A DNA stretch of 64,000 nucleotides from contig NZ_BAIV01000017.1 of NCBI RefSeq assembly GCF_000517545.1, positions 1 through 64,000 on the forward strand, in the 5' to 3' direction. A program made the translations under genes and the position numbers. The notes under the pieces are model-generated. The model was not told the origin of the DNA. It saw only the letters and a list, made by a program, of their open reading frames with translations, and did not search any database. Positions within the stretch are counted from its first letter, which is position 1. Each line of letters starts with the position of its first letter. Of this stretch, positions 4,344 through 55,009 are shown one piece after another. This DNA comes from Bacteroides reticulotermitis JCM 10512. GTDB lineage: Bacteria > Bacteroidota > Bacteroidia > Bacteroidales > Bacteroidaceae.

Positions 4344-5476
4344 ATGAAGAAGATTTATATATTTCTTTCTTTGGCCCTGTTTTGGGGACATACCGTTCTT
4401 GCGGGTTGTGTGGAGAGCGAAGCCCGTTCTTCGAAAGCAGTGATTGAGATTATCCACAAAGTGAATAACTATTGGCAAACCACTCACCCTAAGCATGGAC
4501 GTGCTTTCTGGGATAACGCAGCTTATCACACGGGCAATATGGAGGCCTATTTCTTAACAGGCAAGCCGGAATACCTGCAATTCTCTAAAGACTGGGCCGT
4601 GCATAACGAGTGGAAAGGTGCCAAGTCGGATAATAAGGCGAATTGGAAATACGGCTATGGAGAGAGTGACGATTATGTACTCTTTGGCGATTATCAGATT
4701 TGTTTTCAGGTCTATGCCGATTTATATAATCTGGAGCCGGATGCGTATAAGATTGCCCGGGCCCGTGAAGTGATGGAATATCAGATGAGCACCCCTGAAC
4801 GTGATTATTGGTGGTGGCTGATGGCTTGTATATGGTGATGCCGGTAATGACTAAACTGTATAACATTACTAAGAATCCGCTTTATCTGGAGAAGTTGCAC
4901 GAATACCTGGAATACGCTGACAGCATTATGTATGATGATGAGGCCGGACTCTATTATCGGGACGGGAAGTACGTATACCCTAAGCATAAAAGTGCGAATG
5001 GAAAGAAGGACTTCTGGGCGCGTGGTGACGGCTGGGTACTGGCCGGGCTAGCCAAAGTCTTGAAGGATCTTCCCAAAGAAGATAAGTACCGTCAGCATTA
5101 CATCGAACGTTTTCGTAGGTTGGCCGAATCAGTAGCCGCCTGTCAGCAACCGGAAGGATATTGGACGCGCAGTATGCTTGATCCTACACATGCTCCGGGG
5201 CCGGAAACCAGTGGAACCGCATTCTTTACCTATGGTTTGCAGTGGGGAATCAACAATGGTTTTCTGGATTCTAAACGCTACCAACCGGTTGTGGAAAAAG
5301 CATGGAAGTATTTATCTAAAGTAGCTTTACAGCCTGACGGTAAAGTAGGCTATGTACAGCCTATCGGTGAGAAAGCCATACCCGGACAAGTTGTCGACGC
5401 GAATTCTACATCTAACTTCGGTGTGGGAGCTTTTCTCTTGGCAGCCTGTGAGCGGGTACGTTATCTGAATAACTAA
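4344..5476 (+). CDS. GH105 unsaturated rhamnogalacturonyl/glucuronyl hydrolase, frameshifted
   Basis: An alpha/alpha-barrel hydrolase of about 377 residues. A signal peptide with a possible lipobox (VLAGC, residues 18-22) suggests a lipoprotein. The frame breaks near 4817; adding one G gives DYWWWADGLYMVMPVM, the GH105 catalytic motif with its acidic residue, and restores one frame to the stop at 5476. Further family motifs are KKDFWARGDGWVLAGL near residue 220 and PETSGTAFFTYGLQWG near 290. GH105 removes unsaturated uronic acid from lyase products, here probably from glucuronate-containing arabinogalactan side chains. It is the last gene of the locus; its final bases overlap the opposing gene by 4 bp. 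Confidence 0.85.
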
Positions 5477-6486
5477 TTCAACATCAAACTCATATAAGGA
5501 TTTAGCCGTTCAAAAACTTTGGCGGTTAAATCACTTATGTTCATTTGTACGTGAGCACCTGGAAGGCGTTGGTCGCTGAACATGCATCGTCCGCCATATA
5601 GATAATAATATCCACTGTTACCAGTCAACTGTTTATCCGTGAGTTCCAACTGCATTTTCTCTTCGGGAAAAGCGGAAGCATACAACGTCAGTACCTCTTT
5701 GGCATTAATGATACGAGCCATACCCAGCCGATGTAACTCTTGTGTGTTATCATCGGGAGGAAGGAGCTGCGTTATATGATTACACCCGGTATGCTTTTTA
5801 ATGTGGTGCAACAAACAATGCTCAATATCTTTATTGTCTGCAATAAACTCATTGATAATAAGCTTTTTCCCTCTCTTATATGCAATGGCTACCCCGTCCA
5901 CGCTGCCATCTTGCCTAGCCGTAAACAGATATCCACCGCTAATTGGCAGATCGGCCATGATTACTTGAAAATCCGCTTGCGTATGCTGGATGCAATAAGG
6001 GCGTTTGGCCAGTTGTGCGTTTAGATACTGATAAACATCTTCTTCGTATTCAGTAATGGTATCAACCGAAACCTCTTTGGAAGGAATGAAGTCGGGAATT
6101 GTGCTTTCTTTGATTGCATGGCGAAAAACCGGAGCATATCCCATCCGTGCATAATAGTCGAACAACCAAGGTTCGGCAGGTATCAACGTACTGAAATATA
6201 TCCGGTGCCGAAACATGCGAGTGAAAGCCTGTGAAAGAAGTTCGCGCATGATGCCGTTTCCCCTGAATTCCGGATGCGTACAAGCCCCCGAAATGTAAGA
6301 GGTGTGTACCGTATGCCCACAGAAGGTCATAGGGTATGGAAGCATCTGAAGGGCGGAAACTACTTCCTCACCACTCCGTATAGCAATATTTACCTCATTG
6401 TTATAGCGTAAGCGGAAATACATGTCGATGAATTCCTCGCTATCGTTAAAACAGAGCTTCCATAATGCTTTTACTTCTTCTTTCAT
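5473..6486 (-). CDS. GNAT family N-acetyltransferase, two-domain
   Basis: A 337-residue cytoplasmic protein. Residues 20-130 form a GNAT domain with an acetyl-CoA loop of the R/Q-x-x-G-x-G/A type (HPEFRGNGIMREL), preceded by SYISGACTHPEFRG and followed by FDYYARMGY. The C-terminal half resembles the second GNAT-like and sterol-carrier region of the Eis/YkwB group, but no residue identifies the substrate. It lies 21 bp before, and in the same direction as, the start of its neighbour at 6508-7414 (which is upstream on the minus strand), suggesting one transcript. Its end overlaps the GH105 stop. Substrate unknown. Confidence 0.8.
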   Translation of the reverse strand: MKEEVKALWKLCFNDSEEFIDMYFRLRYNNEVNIAIRSGEEVVSALQMLPYPMTFCGHTVHTSYISGACTHPEFRGNGIMRELLSQAFTRMFRHRIYFSTLIPAEPWLFDYYARMGYAPVFRHAIKESTIPDFIPSKEVSVDTITEYEEDVYQYLNAQLAKRPYCIQHTQADFQVIMADLPISGGYLFTARQDGSVDGVAIAYKRGKKLIINEFIADNKDIEHCLLHHIKKHTGCNHITQLLPPDDNTQELHRLGMARIINAKEVLTLYASAFPEEKMQLELTDKQLTGNSGYYYLYGGRCMFSDQRLPGAHVQMNISDLTAKVFERLNPYMSLMLN

Positions 6487-6507
6487 AGTTCGTTGCAGAT
6501 TACCATT

Positions 6508-7414
6508 TTACCATTTCCATTGGACAGGTTTGTAGCATGCCATATATTTCTCTAGAATAATTGTGGGTTGGTAAGATAGTTTGGCTTTACGAAGTCCTTC
6601 AATCCCAAGATCTTCTTCCCGATTGATATACGTATATTGTTCCGGAATACGGCTGGAAAATTCGTAGTTGATCATAGCGTATGCACCATCGATGGAAGTA
6701 TCAGCCTTCTCTACATGTACACCGAAAGTGTCCTTGTTGATAGGCATTCCAAAGGTGAAAGCTACGATTTTGCCATCCACATGTAAAATGCCTCCGGTCA
6801 ATCCCAATGCTTCAAAATTGTGCAAGGCATAAATCAATGCACGACGTTCGTTACCGGTACCCTCTTGTTGGTCGCAGTTGTTTACTTTACACCACTCAGC
6901 CTCCAGTTCCATACACTCTTTGATACGGTCGGGCGTAATGGGCGTGTACTCATAATTAGGGTAAGAGTTGCGAAAACGATTAATATGATTCCGTTTAGCT
7001 TGGAATTTCTTTCCTTTCAGCGTAGCGAGGTCACTACGCAGATATATATAATCGGCATAGTCACGGTCGGCAGTAAATTGAAACTGTTCCGGCATGGTGT
7101 CTTCCAGTTCATTCCGCATTCCTGTGCATACTCCCAATATACAAAACGGCTGATTCTCCTCAGTCGCATCGTTGATGAGCTTTTGTAACACATCTTTCGG
7201 ATTACCTGTACCCACAGGCATCATATAGCTAATTTATCTTCAGCCAGAACTTGAAAACCAGGAAATTATCTACAATCGCGAACTTCGTGTTATAGAGAAA
7301 TCGCCAACTACATAAGTTTGAAAAAGAAAGATCACAATTCCGGCGGGAACTGTTCATTGTATAAGAGGTTATTAAGTCTTTATCTGCTAAAGTGATGTCT
7401 TTAAAATCAATCAT
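6508..7414 (-). CDS. DUF2156 / phosphatidylglycerol lysyltransferase C-terminal domain protein, frameshifted
   Basis: About 302 residues, a stand-alone version of the lysylphosphatidylglycerol synthetase C-terminal fold (paired GNAT domains) without the membrane flippase part. N-terminal start MIDFKDITLADKDLI. Later motifs: KGKKFQAKRNHINRFRNSYP near residue 145, GGILHVDGKIVAFTFG near 225, YTYINREEDLGIEGLRKAK near 275. The frame changes between 7226 and 7245. Adding one G and one T gives FWAEDKLAYMMPVG, which fits the family better than either broken end, so two single-base deletions are likely. Biological substrate is unknown for the short bacterial forms; aminoacyl transfer is a family-based guess. 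Confidence 0.75.
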
Positions 7415-7472
7415 GAAATGTTTATTACGTTTAACTATTAACTATATAACGCTGTAGACCGCTATTTTGTTG

Positions 7473-8168
7473 CTATAGCATGCCTAATAGTCGCAGAATA
7501 GTGGGAGTTAGCAAGGCGGTGAGTATCCCGTTTAGTGTTAGCCCCAGACTGGCATAAGCACCATACTTACTGCTGATATCCATGGCGGTAGAAGTACCTA
7601 CGGCGTGAGCAGCCGTACCCATGGATAAGCCTTGCGCAATAGGACTCCCCACCCGCATTATTTTCATGGTTTTAAAACCACAAACAGCACCTAGTAAACC
7701 TACGCAAACCACTACAGCAGCCGTGAGTGAGGGGATTCCCCCGATGGACTTTGTTACTTCCATCGCTATCGGGGTGGTGACCGATTTCGACGCAAGTGAA
7801 AGGATTACTTCTTGCGAAGCTCCCAACAGTTTCGCTATTAGAACAACAGCGATAACTCCCACAACACAACCAGCTAACTGGGACAGTAAGATTGGTAGCA
7901 GTTGCTTCTTGATGGTCTCCAGTTGTAAGTAGAGGGGGACTCCCAACGCAACTACTGCCGGTTTAAGCCAAAACTCAATGAGGTGTCCTCCTTCATTGTA
8001 TGTCTCATACGAGATGTTAGTTGTCTTTAAGAAAACAATGAGTATAGCTATGGTGAGTAGTATGGGGTTGAGTAAAACCAGCCCGGTTTTTTTCTGTAAT
8101 AACTTAGCGAGGAAGAAGATCCCGAAGGTGATGGCCAGCAGGAAGAATTCATTTTCAAAGAAACTCAT
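7473..8168 (-). CDS. lrgB: LrgB family membrane protein
   Basis: A 231-residue integral membrane protein with about six hydrophobic segments and the LrgB signature region around VTTPIAMEVTKSIGGIPSL and MGTAAHAVGTSTAMD. LrgB partners with LrgA. The pair was first described as regulating murein hydrolase activity and is now also known as a pyruvate (and possibly acetate-linked) transporter in other bacteria. The start overlaps the lrgA stop by 4 bp, so translation is coupled. The operon is divergent from pta-ackA, which fits a role in overflow metabolism. Confidence 0.9.
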   Translation of the reverse strand: MSFFENEFFLLAITFGIFFLAKLLQKKTGLVLLNPILLTIAILIVFLKTTNISYETYNEGGHLIEFWLKPAVVALGVPLYLQLETIKKQLLPILLSQLAGCVVGVIAVVLIAKLLGASQEVILSLASKSVTTPIAMEVTKSIGGIPSLTAAVVVCVGLLGAVCGFKTMKIMRVGSPIAQGLSMGTAAHAVGTSTAMDISSKYGAYASLGLTLNGILTALLTPTILRLLGML

Positions 8169-14178: not shown

Positions 14179-14313
14179 TAGTACTCAAGTTACTTCAGCC
14201 CGTACTTGGATTGAGTAAATCGAGCACTAGGCTGTTAATGCTTAATCTCTAGCTTGTTAATACTTAAGAAATAGGCTATTAATACTTGAACGTTCAAGTG
14301 TTAATAGTTGAGA
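14179..14313. repeat. 22-bp period repeat array A1 (TTAAT units)
   Basis: The pentamer TTAAT recurs at 14235, 14257, 14279 and 14301, exactly 22 bp apart. Units are of the form ACTTnAn...TGTTAAT and are diverged. The pair of units around 14291 makes a near-perfect 28-bp palindrome (14278-14305, one mismatched pair) with the core ACTTGAACGTTCAAGT. Less regular related sequence (GTACTCAAG, ACTTGGATTGAGTA) precedes it. The array lies between the convergent lpxH and phosphatase genes. Confidence 0.75.
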
Positions 14314-22898: not shown

Positions 22899-23298
22899 AG
22901 TTGATTGAGGCGGTATTGTCATAATAAAAGCACAAAATCGGGCCTGTCGAGGTAATCAAACATACCATCAGGAAAGGTGAAGCGAAGGGAGCTTCATTTA
23001 TATGTCTTTGCGACAAAGCTAAGAGAATAGCCATTAAACTCCTTAGGAATTCGGTGTAATTCCCTCTTTCAGTCTACCAACTTCTTTAATAAATGATCGA
23101 ACTTCTTCAATAGTTCGCCCCGGACTTCCGAACCTTACTACCCCCGTAAGCTAACTTACGGATCGCTTGCAAAAGTATGGGATCTCTCTTTTTACCTGAG
23201 TACTATTTAAGTTTTGACTCTTTTGGCAAACTGTGCAATACCGTGTAGCCATTCTGTGTTCCTAATTTCATCATCGGGGCTTGACAGAAGCACTTTGT
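22899..23298. other. gene-poor stretch left of the inverted-repeat element
   Basis: No convincing full gene. It holds small hairpins (for example CCGTAAG/CTTACGG near 23145-23162), a minus-strand -7-like TACTTTTGC at 23169-23177, and a degraded small ORF described separately. Confidence 0.5.
23043..23202 (-). pseudogene. possible frameshifted small ORF of unknown function
   Basis: On the minus strand two frames read sensibly in succession: KKRDPILLQAIRKLAYGG, then VVRFGSPGRTIEEVRSFIK, ending KEGITPNS and a stop at 23043. They join if a run of five G near 23145 is really six. This is the same error type as elsewhere in the window. No ATG is visible upstream and the frame is closed by TAG at 23203. 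It may be a fragment of a small DNA-binding or mobile-element protein, but I do not recognise it. Confidence 0.25.
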
Positions 23299-23823
23299 AC
23301 AATGATACAACACGCTTATGTCATAATCACTTTTTTGCGTATCATTCAGTATATCAGTGTCTTATTTTGCGTCTTCTTTTTTTAGATCATTTCATTTCGA
23401 TGAGTGGCCGCTATTACTTATTTTCTCAAAAAACAGAGCCTTCAATTCACCAAACAAGCCTGTTTTAGAACCGTATTGTGCGCAACTATTCGTAAATTCA
23501 AACAGTCTTTTCTATGTTTATTCCCTTCTATTTCCTGTCGCACCTATGTGCGACGGCTGTTCCACATTATGTGGGACACGTGCTTCACAATATGTGAGTC
23601 AGCTGTTCCACAGTTGTGGAACAGGAAATATTATGGGCAAAGATGTCTTTTACTAGTTGTTTACTACTAGCTAGCGGGAGATTTTTGCTAAGTACACAGT
23701 CTTTGGAAACCGGTATTATTTATTGAGTAGATCAGTCTGAGAAAAGTAGACGCAATATATCAAACTGTCAATCAGTAGTTTATATCAAAAAGTGATTATG
23801 ACATAAGAGTCTTGTATCATTGT
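23299..23823. mobile_element. MITE-like element with inverted terminal repeats
   Basis: The left end (23299-23336) and the reverse complement of the right end (23787-23823) share about 37 bp with two mismatches: ACAATGATACAA, three or four variable bases, then CTTATGTCATAATCAC and a T run. A second shared block, TGCGTCT, follows inside each end at 32-33 bp distance (23368 and 23754). The interior of about 525 bp has no credible gene and encloses palindromic array A3. No target-site duplication is obvious. The architecture fits a non-autonomous transposable element, but I do not recognise the ends from a named IS family. Confidence 0.6.
23529..23630. repeat. palindromic repeat array A3 (four units, ~22.5-bp period)
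   Basis: Four palindromes are centred near 23545.5, 23568, 23591 and 23613.5, a spacing of 22.5-23 bp. Unit 1 is GTCGCAC/GTGCGAC, unit 2 TGTTCCACA/TGTGGGACA, unit 3 TTCACA/TGTGAG, unit 4 CTGTTCCACA/TGTGGAACAG. The whole array is bounded by a perfect 10-bp inverted repeat, TATTTCCTGT (23529) and ACAGGAAATA (23621). It lies in the middle of the MITE-like element. Confidence 0.75.
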
Positions 23824-24106
23824 GTACTCGCTTCAATTGCATGTTTTACCGGTTAATTAGTTTGTAGATGCAGGCTATATTCCTAGATTTCAGTTAAGGG
23901 GAATAATGAATATCCTCTTATTATTGTATAGATTCACGAAGATTCAGGCGTAATCCCCAGCCTTTTGCAGGTGATCCACTTTATACATATAAAGGGCCAT
24001 CTTGCTTAGCAGATGACCCTTTACATGTATATTTATTATGCCCTCCGGCCTATTCTACTCATCGAATACGCTCGATCGAGCTGTATGGAAGAGGAGTTGC
24101 CCGAAT
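23824..24106. other. intergenic stretch right of the element
   Basis: No gene seen. A hairpin AAGGGCCATC/GATGACCCTT lies near 23991-24023; it probably ends the minus-strand argF' transcript. Confidence 0.4.
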
Positions 24107-25061
24107 TTACTTCAAGCCCTCCAGCATACGTTTCAATACAACAGTAGCCGATATTTCACGGTTGGCTGCTTCCGGTATAACGATAGACTGTGCGCTTTCG
24201 ATTACATCATCCGTCACAATCATATTTCTACGAACGGGTAAGCAGTGCATGAAAAACGCGTTGTTGGTTACCCCCATCTGTCGATCTCCTACTGTCCATT
24301 CACGATCTTTACTCAAAATCTGTCCATAGTTCTCGCCGGTATAGGCAGCCCAGTTCTTGGCATATACGAAGTCGGCTCCTTCAAAAGCTTTCATCTGGTC
24401 GTACTCAACGCGAGCATTCCCTACAAAAGCCGGATCGAGTTCATACTTCGGGATGCGTAATAACGAAGTCATAGTCCGTTGCATTCATCCATTCAGCAAA
24501 CGAGTTCGGTACGGCTTGTGGCAATGGACGCGGATGCGGTGCCCAAGTCATAACAACTTTAGGACGTGGTGTTTTCTTATATTCCTCAATGGTAATCAGG
24601 TCGGCAAAACTTTGCAACGGATGGCGGGTAGCCGCTTCCATCGAGAATACAGGTCTTCCTGAGTATTTGATAAACTGATTGATAATTACCTCTTGGTAGT
24701 CATAGTCGCGGTTCTCAAAGCGGGCAAACGAACGTACGCCAATGATGTCGCAATAGCAACCCATTACCGGAATAGCTTCTAAAATATGTTCGGGCTTGTC
24801 TCCATCCATGATAACACCCCGTTCGGTCTCCAACTTCCAGGCTCCTTGGTTGATATCGAGTACGATCACATTCATTCCCAGGTTGGTTGCTGCTTTTTGC
24901 GTGCTCAGACGAGTACGTAGGCTAGCGTTGAAGAAGATCATCATCAACGTTTTGTTACGTCCCAACTCCACATACTTAAAGCGGTCATTCTTAATCTCAA
25001 ATGCTTCGGCAAGGGCGGCTTTCAAATCGCCAATGTCCTGTACACAAGTAAATTTCTTCAT
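24107..25061 (-). CDS. argF: N-succinylornithine carbamoyltransferase (SOTCase), frameshifted
   Basis: About 318 residues after repair. Carbamoyltransferase motifs: FFNASLRTRLSTQKAA near residue 44 (carbamoyl phosphate binding), ATRHPLQSFADL near 147 and MHCLPVRRN near 265. Residue 90, counted from the first Met, is Pro (GDKPEH). In the B. fragilis enzyme Pro90 is the residue that fixes preference for N-succinyl- over N-acetylornithine, so arginine is probably made through succinylated intermediates. The two ORFs meet near 24446; restoring one G and one T gives THPEGYELDPAF. Downstream of proA by 47 bp. Confidence 0.93.
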
Positions 25062-54735: not shown

Positions 54736-54921
54736 AAGCGAAAAAAACATTCGGAGAGGGCAGTTCCGCTTATTTATTTTATGAGGATGCTTTGTTTTGT
54801 GAATGGCCTGTGATGGAGTTTGGCGATTCGGGAATGATATACGGTATTGCTCCCGCATGCCTTTTTCTCTTCTTCCTGCTGCATTCGTTTGTTAGCTCGC
54901 TTGCTGCTATTTATTCGTATG

Positions 54922-55009
54922 ACTATAGTTATACGAAAGAGTAACTACAGTCATACGCAAGAGACACTATAGTCATACGAAAGGGAGACTATAGTTATAC
55001 GAAATAATA
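54922..55009. repeat. 22-bp tandem array A4 (ACTATAGT units)
   Basis: Four contiguous units of exactly 22 bp start at 54922, 54944, 54966 and 54988, each ACTAnAGTnATACG then a variable tail. With the preceding TTCGTATG the first unit forms a 24-bp near-palindrome (TTCGTATGACTATAG...). It lies between the divergent argR and rhaK genes. The unit sequence is unrelated to arrays A1-A3. Confidence 0.8.

Follow-up and report, generated by a model that had tools for sequence, protein, structure and literature searches.

A probable MITE-like element family of Bacteroides reticulotermitis with a palindromic array related to an HU-HIG locus

Introduction

REP, BIME and REPIN sequences, which are linked to RAYT transposases, are palindromes dispersed between genes, like the element described here; they differ from the present family in that the latter has terminal inverted repeats (TIRs) of 22 bp and, in some copies, 8-bp target duplications. 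The name HU-HIG, used below for a group of HU-related proteins, reportedly originates in work by Burroughs, Aravind and colleagues.

On comparison, the closest known system appears to be the BrickBuilt family of MITEs of Porphyromonas gingivalis. In the passages of Klein et al. (2015; PMC4596501) that concern us, BrickBuilt has 19 copies, both ends being present in 4 of the 19, and one copy, BrickBuilt_14, is listed beside a gene for a DNA-binding protein of the HU family (PF00216); a review, in its section on these repeats, describes BrickBuilt as strictly intergenic (PMC10969869). Like the element studied here, BrickBuilt is gene-less and dispersed; 23-nt units form a tandem array in its interior, the ends are inverted, long hairpins are predicted, and its end GAGACCTTTGCA has a TTGCA block in common with the end of our element. 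In contrast, the BrickBuilt unit AGAYCATARTATCCTCTCRTRTG and the GAGACCTTTGCA ends differ from those of our element when compared by eye, target duplications are irregular in BrickBuilt and 8 bp long in some copies of our family, and BrickBuilt ends match resident IS5-family elements, whereas those of our element match none seen. The array of our element appears to derive from an HU locus, a derivation absent from the BrickBuilt passages (PMC4596501). In Correia elements, as outlined in the review, a mobile repeat brings a binding site of the HU/IHF class, as is proposed here; that site is a single demonstrated IHF site, whereas our element has a tandem palindromic array related to an HU-HIG locus, at which binding is presumed (PMC10969869). 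A further report deals with the HU protein of P. gingivalis and an inverted repeat of 77 bp (PMC3969353).

Results and Discussion

Architecture of the element

The window, a 64,000-nt stretch of B. reticulotermitis JCM 10512, contains one copy of an element which is probably a member of a non-autonomous, MITE-like family of transposable elements, with a putatively protein-binding array derived from an HU-HIG locus as its cargo. From TIR to TIR, the element spans 818 bp of the forward strand (window 23160..23977), a boundary common to other copies. The TIR sequence of the family is GGATCAC(C/T)TGCAAAAGTATGGG; the left TIR (23160..23181, forward strand) has one mismatch and the right TIR (23956..23977, reverse strand) three mismatches to the family consensus used. 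These termini replace those of the preliminary description, in which a pair of 37-bp inverted sequences had been taken as the ends. Both sequences are present as described (23299-23335 and 23787-23823; 37 nt, 95% complementary, 451 nt apart), but copies stay similar outwards on both sides as far as the 22-bp TIRs, and the assignment as ends was rejected because the alignment of 37 copies extends past them; they are subterminal arms. Searched by themselves, the outer flanks matched the own genome 29 and 27 times. The left arm (23299..23335, forward strand) is homologous to the 3′ end and terminator of an HU-HIG gene at the xylE locus described below, while the right arm (23787..23823, reverse strand) has two alleles among the copies, and in many of them it is represented by the other allele, the outer part of which has no match to the left arm. 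The conserved TGCGTCT block reported earlier was recovered inside a longer inverted similarity of about 75% over 88 bp (23299-23386 versus 23736-23823).

The 525-bp interior is gene-less, as had been claimed, with short ORFs of up to 99 aa. The palindromic array occupies positions 23529..23630 (forward strand), is built of CACA..TGTG half-sites with a period of 23 bp (TRF, 23545-23612, score 73), and is bounded by its own inverted sequences TATTTCCTGT/ACAGGAAATA, in agreement with the earlier account. Folded as DNA, the array reached z = -7.45 relative to shuffles. A CRISPR array was considered and rejected, the units being contiguous at 22-23 bp and imperfect (73-86%), with no unique spacers.

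A dispersed family in the own genome

A single assembly of one species was examined, comprising 5.37 Mb in 97 contigs. The 525-bp core had at least 104 matches in it, a lower bound obtained with 40 of 77 candidate places scored. For alignment, 39 matched places were taken together with the initial 20 kb of the contig that holds the window; the 36 places matching over 400 bp or more formed, with the window copy, a set of 37, and L045-L047 were left out since their matches were shorter or split. The earlier proviso that the end sequence might be found only here is thus answered by 36 further core copies. Alignable copies are short (538-827 bp), their cores have a mean pairwise identity of 0.771 (range 0.626-0.954), and many are devoid of part of an outer arm. 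The closest pair is 95% identical, a level from which present activity does not follow. In an ORF test ignoring short ORFs over the core, 35 of the 37 copies overlapped no ORF; L038 contains one of 129 aa, in L029 a 107-aa ORF spans the left border, L032 and L040 touch an adjoining ORF by about 30 bp, and no core copy lies inside a recognisable long gene. The neighbouring ORFs are convergent in 14 cases, tandem in 20 and divergent in 3.

The location of 34 of the 37 copies in convergent or tandem gaps would also suit an element that acts as RNA, its transcribed long hairpin serving as a terminator or mRNA stabiliser. The 818-nt sequence folds with z = -10.9 (20 shuffles), and all 37 cores reach z <= -2 on one strand or both (12 shuffles each, with values from -0.4 to -14); such stability, however, follows from the inverted layout of the DNA. 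The RNAalifold covariation term was just -1.19 kcal/mol, any double change was seen in 7 of 54 pairs, and no Rfam family matched at gathering level, a single sub-threshold hit in E-value mode being taken as chance. Function as RNA is therefore regarded as quite improbable, and a conserved RNA structure was rejected because covariation is nearly absent.

Another dispersed repeat, TGAGAGATACCTC..ATGCGAGAAAATGATGAGAGATACC, with a spacing of about 22 bp, adjoins several copies (flanks of L013, L020, L022, L036, L039, L106 and others).

Additionally, a second form of the element was identified. In L102, L103, L105 and L178, both arms enclose an interior of another sequence, which carries the 22-bp array TTTCATAAGGGTGAAACA (type II), and in L086, L179, L180 and L181 the left arm lies beside the type II interior, near contig ends or truncated. 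Alone, this interior gave 19 matches in the own genome. The finding of two different arrays between the same arms bears out the proposal that the array travels as cargo and suggests that the cargo can be swapped. No matching array was found for the type II array upstream of the HU-HIG loci examined. In L102, L180 and L181 the type II interior is inverted with respect to the left arm, an arrangement such as recombination of the arms might produce.

Termini and target duplications

At up to six mismatches, the left TIR was found in 21 and the right TIR in 17 of the 37 copies; among random stretches of comparable length the figure was 1 of 185. Both TIRs are kept in 10 of the 37, which counts against a mobile element. 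Among these two-ended copies, an 8-bp target duplication (at least 7 of 8 positions identical) flanks three (L012, L014, L015), while mispaired flanks, used as a null, gave 0 of 90. At the same identity cut, duplications of 5-7 or 9-11 bp occurred in no copy and no null pair, and those of 4 bp in 0 of 10 copies versus 3 of 90 null pairs. A target duplication is present in these three copies and absent from the other seven two-ended ones, among them the window copy, in which 7 of the 8 positions differ; its absence may reflect age or recombination between copies. Overall, the mobility of the family is well supported, and the classification as MITE-like is upheld by the 22-bp TIRs, the dispersed gene-less copies and the 8-bp duplications in some of them.

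No transposase gene with the ends of the element was seen at the TIR matches inspected away from alignable cores. Of these, those on C39, C60 and C83 adjoin truncated copies, that on C46 is 12 bp short of the end of its contig, among whose ORFs there is no transposase, and that at C93:41827 precedes a regulator-like gene. A further match, C93:30703, is known at the level of blastn. In L085, a TIR-like sequence with two mismatches (about 5001-5022) immediately precedes a regulator-like gene, and no element was seen there; TACTTTTG within it resembles a Bacteroides -7 promoter box.

As a working model, a DDE transposase acting in trans, of which none was seen in the assembly, would have recognised the 22-bp ends and made cuts staggered by 8 bp. 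A segment of the HU-HIG locus would have been captured between such ends, its coding parts then decaying, and the array would have been carried along to every new insertion site.

Distribution in relatives

Among 158 genomes of the genus, full-length matches were confined to the own genome, with none in the 157 others; four of these yielded no more than 52-78 bp of the array or an arm, in a search that scored three candidates per genome and may miss weak copies. Likewise, a search of 41 genomes gave long matches in the own genome and short pieces only in two others. With at most one mismatch, the TIR was confined to the own genome among 393 sampled from the order, a sample with few members of the genus. 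A wider scan of contigs for the TIR returned two stretches, from Bacteroidales UBA714 (L108) and Grimontia indica (L109), where about one chance match would presumably be expected by our own estimate. A second TIR-like site lies 20 bp away in the same direction with five mismatches in L108, and 313 bp away in the opposite direction with six mismatches in L109.

Empty sites, whose absence had been named as grounds for doubt, were found in all three relatives with a readable site among nine loci tested (L112, L113, L114). In these, the gap between the rhodanese gene and argF measures 94-108 bp, as opposed to about 1680 bp in the window, where the gap also holds an extra ORF.

The argF-like gene of the window (24107-25061, reverse strand; named by eye) appears as overlapping ORFs in different frames, as do the xylE- and ileS-like genes of L101 (6888-8338 and 13185-16446; named by eye). 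The split ORFs suggest frameshifts or indel errors in the assembly.

Origin of the interior at the xylE locus

Weak matches in two other genomes (G012 and G001) pointed to a locus downstream of xylE, which is also present in the own genome (L091/L101) and consists of an HU-HIG gene, a palindromic 23-bp array and a VapE-like gene. By Pfam, the two proteins correspond to HU-HIG (PF18291) and to a VapE-like protein (PF05272) with a C-terminal DUF3874. Parts of this locus occur in the copies in the same order, with the array region in 37 of 37, the left arm (3′ end of the HU gene) in 35 of 37 and a patch of HU coding sequence in 19 of 37. In the window copy, the left arm stretch 23318-23381 matches L091 1444-1507 (80%, E 1.7e-11), and a segment homologous to the HU-HIG start and array region (23473..23631, forward strand) matches L091 2126-2287 (66% over 162 columns, E 6e-15). 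Between them lies a decayed HU-HIG coding fragment (23380..23457, reverse strand) corresponding to about residues 113-138 of the 206-aa protein, with a nucleotide match of 70% (23391-23450 versus L091 1716-1775, E 1.8e-5) and a weak tblastn value of E 0.058. Such protein remnants are weak throughout, the best copies reaching E 0.002 and 11 of 37 falling below E 1; the L036 copy was also found in a genome search for the HU protein (E 9.8e-4). No TIR was present at the xylE locus within six mismatches in 19 kb. Judged by sequence similarity, the interior of the element reproduces the HU-HIG/array/VapE intergenic region in degraded form, in which the coding parts have decayed or gone and the array was kept. 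The array of a mobile repeat thereby gets a traceable origin, a resident locus.

Close orthologs of this HU-HIG protein (E <= 1e-50) were found in 5 of 60 genomes of the genus, and a CACA/TGTG array lies beside the HU gene in all five, as judged by eye. In G012, the end of the HU-HIG gene is the site of an insert, about 2.9 kb long and containing three ORFs (L089, about 4985-7920), which is flanked by direct repeats of about 40 bp (both by eye).

With HU-HIG on one side and the VapE-like protein (C-terminal DUF3874) on the other, the array could also be read as a replication origin of the iteron type belonging to a degenerate replicon, with VapE as helicase and HU as architectural factor, and the element as a dispersed origin fragment. 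A repeat length of about 22 bp is familiar among iterons, and this counts in its favour. This origin is nevertheless unlikely, as viral contigs hold no close VapE relative, the core had no match in phages or plasmids, and arrays precede many HU-HIG genes (a count covering the HU-HIG side only).

Conservation of the array and a candidate reader protein

Across the 37 copies, the 32 positions of the CACA/TGTG half-sites have a mean conservation of 0.976, compared with 0.860 at 64 other array positions and 0.838 at 356 other core positions, and none of 10000 permutations was as extreme. The array units are palindromic at P 0.036 (column shuffling). Since RNA covariation is nearly absent, a constraint at the DNA level by protein binding is the better reading of the half-sites, and exchange among units that resemble each other could account for part of their conservation. 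Were such exchange its only cause, the copies might be functionless remnants of a burst long past, which recombination and gene conversion had spread, a reading in keeping with the mean pairwise identity of 0.77, the truncated and composite copies and the lack of duplications in most two-ended ones. We consider it rather doubtful, because the CACA/TGTG positions are far better conserved than their neighbours and 8-bp duplications flank the TIRs of three copies. The idea that the array serves as a mobilisation signal found no support in our results; constrained half-sites would fit a site for a host protein or a role in transposition.

The structure model of the HU-HIG protein (pLDDT 86.5) combines an HU body with a C-terminal part made up of three helices and short strands. 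Its fold matched the Bacteroides structure 4fmr (E 1e-5) and HU/IHF proteins, as well as an IclR-type regulator over 62 columns (E 0.014), and in the model the latter match fits a C-terminal winged helix without proving it. Less certain than the origin of the array is its proposed role as a tandem operator, for which the HU-HIG protein of the xylE locus, with its HU body and winged-helix-like domain, is the candidate ligand. The element would then have dispersed candidate binding sites of a nucleoid-type protein round the chromosome. If this binding is true, direct tests become possible of what this expanded and little-studied protein family does, its sites being spread by mobile elements.

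Arrays upstream of other HU-HIG genes

Matches to PF18291 were present in all 13 genomes of the genus searched, ranging from 2 to 41 each, with 22 in the own genome and 41 in G012; the profile also matched 9 of 14 control genomes, for example that of E. coli, so these counts include ordinary HU proteins. The 330 bp upstream were scanned for periods of 19-27 in 39 of 40 loci (L157 was too short), of which three repeat places already included (L139, L154, L165), leaving 36 distinct. An array attained by at most 1 of 100 shuffles was detected in 26 of 39 loci (24 of 36 distinct), all with periods of 20-23, although in several loci the chosen ORF may not be HU (e.g., L148, L151, L159, L161, L164, L165). 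For control genes, which were taken from the own genome only, the count was 1 of 60; z exceeded 4 in 24 of 39 HU-HIG loci versus 0 of 60 controls, the 30 added HU-HIG loci being those returned by the search. Palindromic units were assessed in 21 of the 24 distinct arrays (L097, L145 and L158 aside), with P <= 0.05 in 11 and P <= 0.01 in 7, while 10 of 21 stayed above 0.05. A strict count of 16-bp palindromes in 25 upstream regions exceeded all 200 shuffles in 1 and gave little because only short cores are common. A first scan for hairpin clusters, which was too strict, found nothing even at known arrays. The array motifs vary between HU-HIG loci.

A stricter scan of the own genome, within the stretches examined, yielded 47 arrays, at least 20 of them copies of the element. 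Seven adjoin an HU-like ORF and the rest do not, which counts against the proposed operator role. A broader and tentative proposal is that Bacteroides HU-HIG proteins are paralogous, sequence-specific nucleoid proteins, each with a palindromic 22-bp array of its own upstream of its gene and orphan arrays elsewhere, and that MITE-like elements copy and swap such arrays, rewiring the sites of one paralog within one species. HU-HIG is a concrete candidate reader for the recurrent intergenic palindromic arrays of 20-23 bp in the own genome. A search of the open-access literature, to which subscription papers and preprints were external, found nothing on HU-HIG arrays.

Among the orphan arrays, the 22-bp array CGTATGACTATAGTTATACG at window 54915-55004 precedes a gene that by eye is rhamnulokinase-like. 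This orphan (window 54923) shares the ACTATAGT motif with the array preceding an HU-HIG gene (L096), and its units are palindromic at P 0.018, or 0.215 over a slightly different stretch. Two further orphan 22-bp arrays, at window 14230-14311 and at position 1303 of L106, have a common TATTAATACTTGA-like motif.
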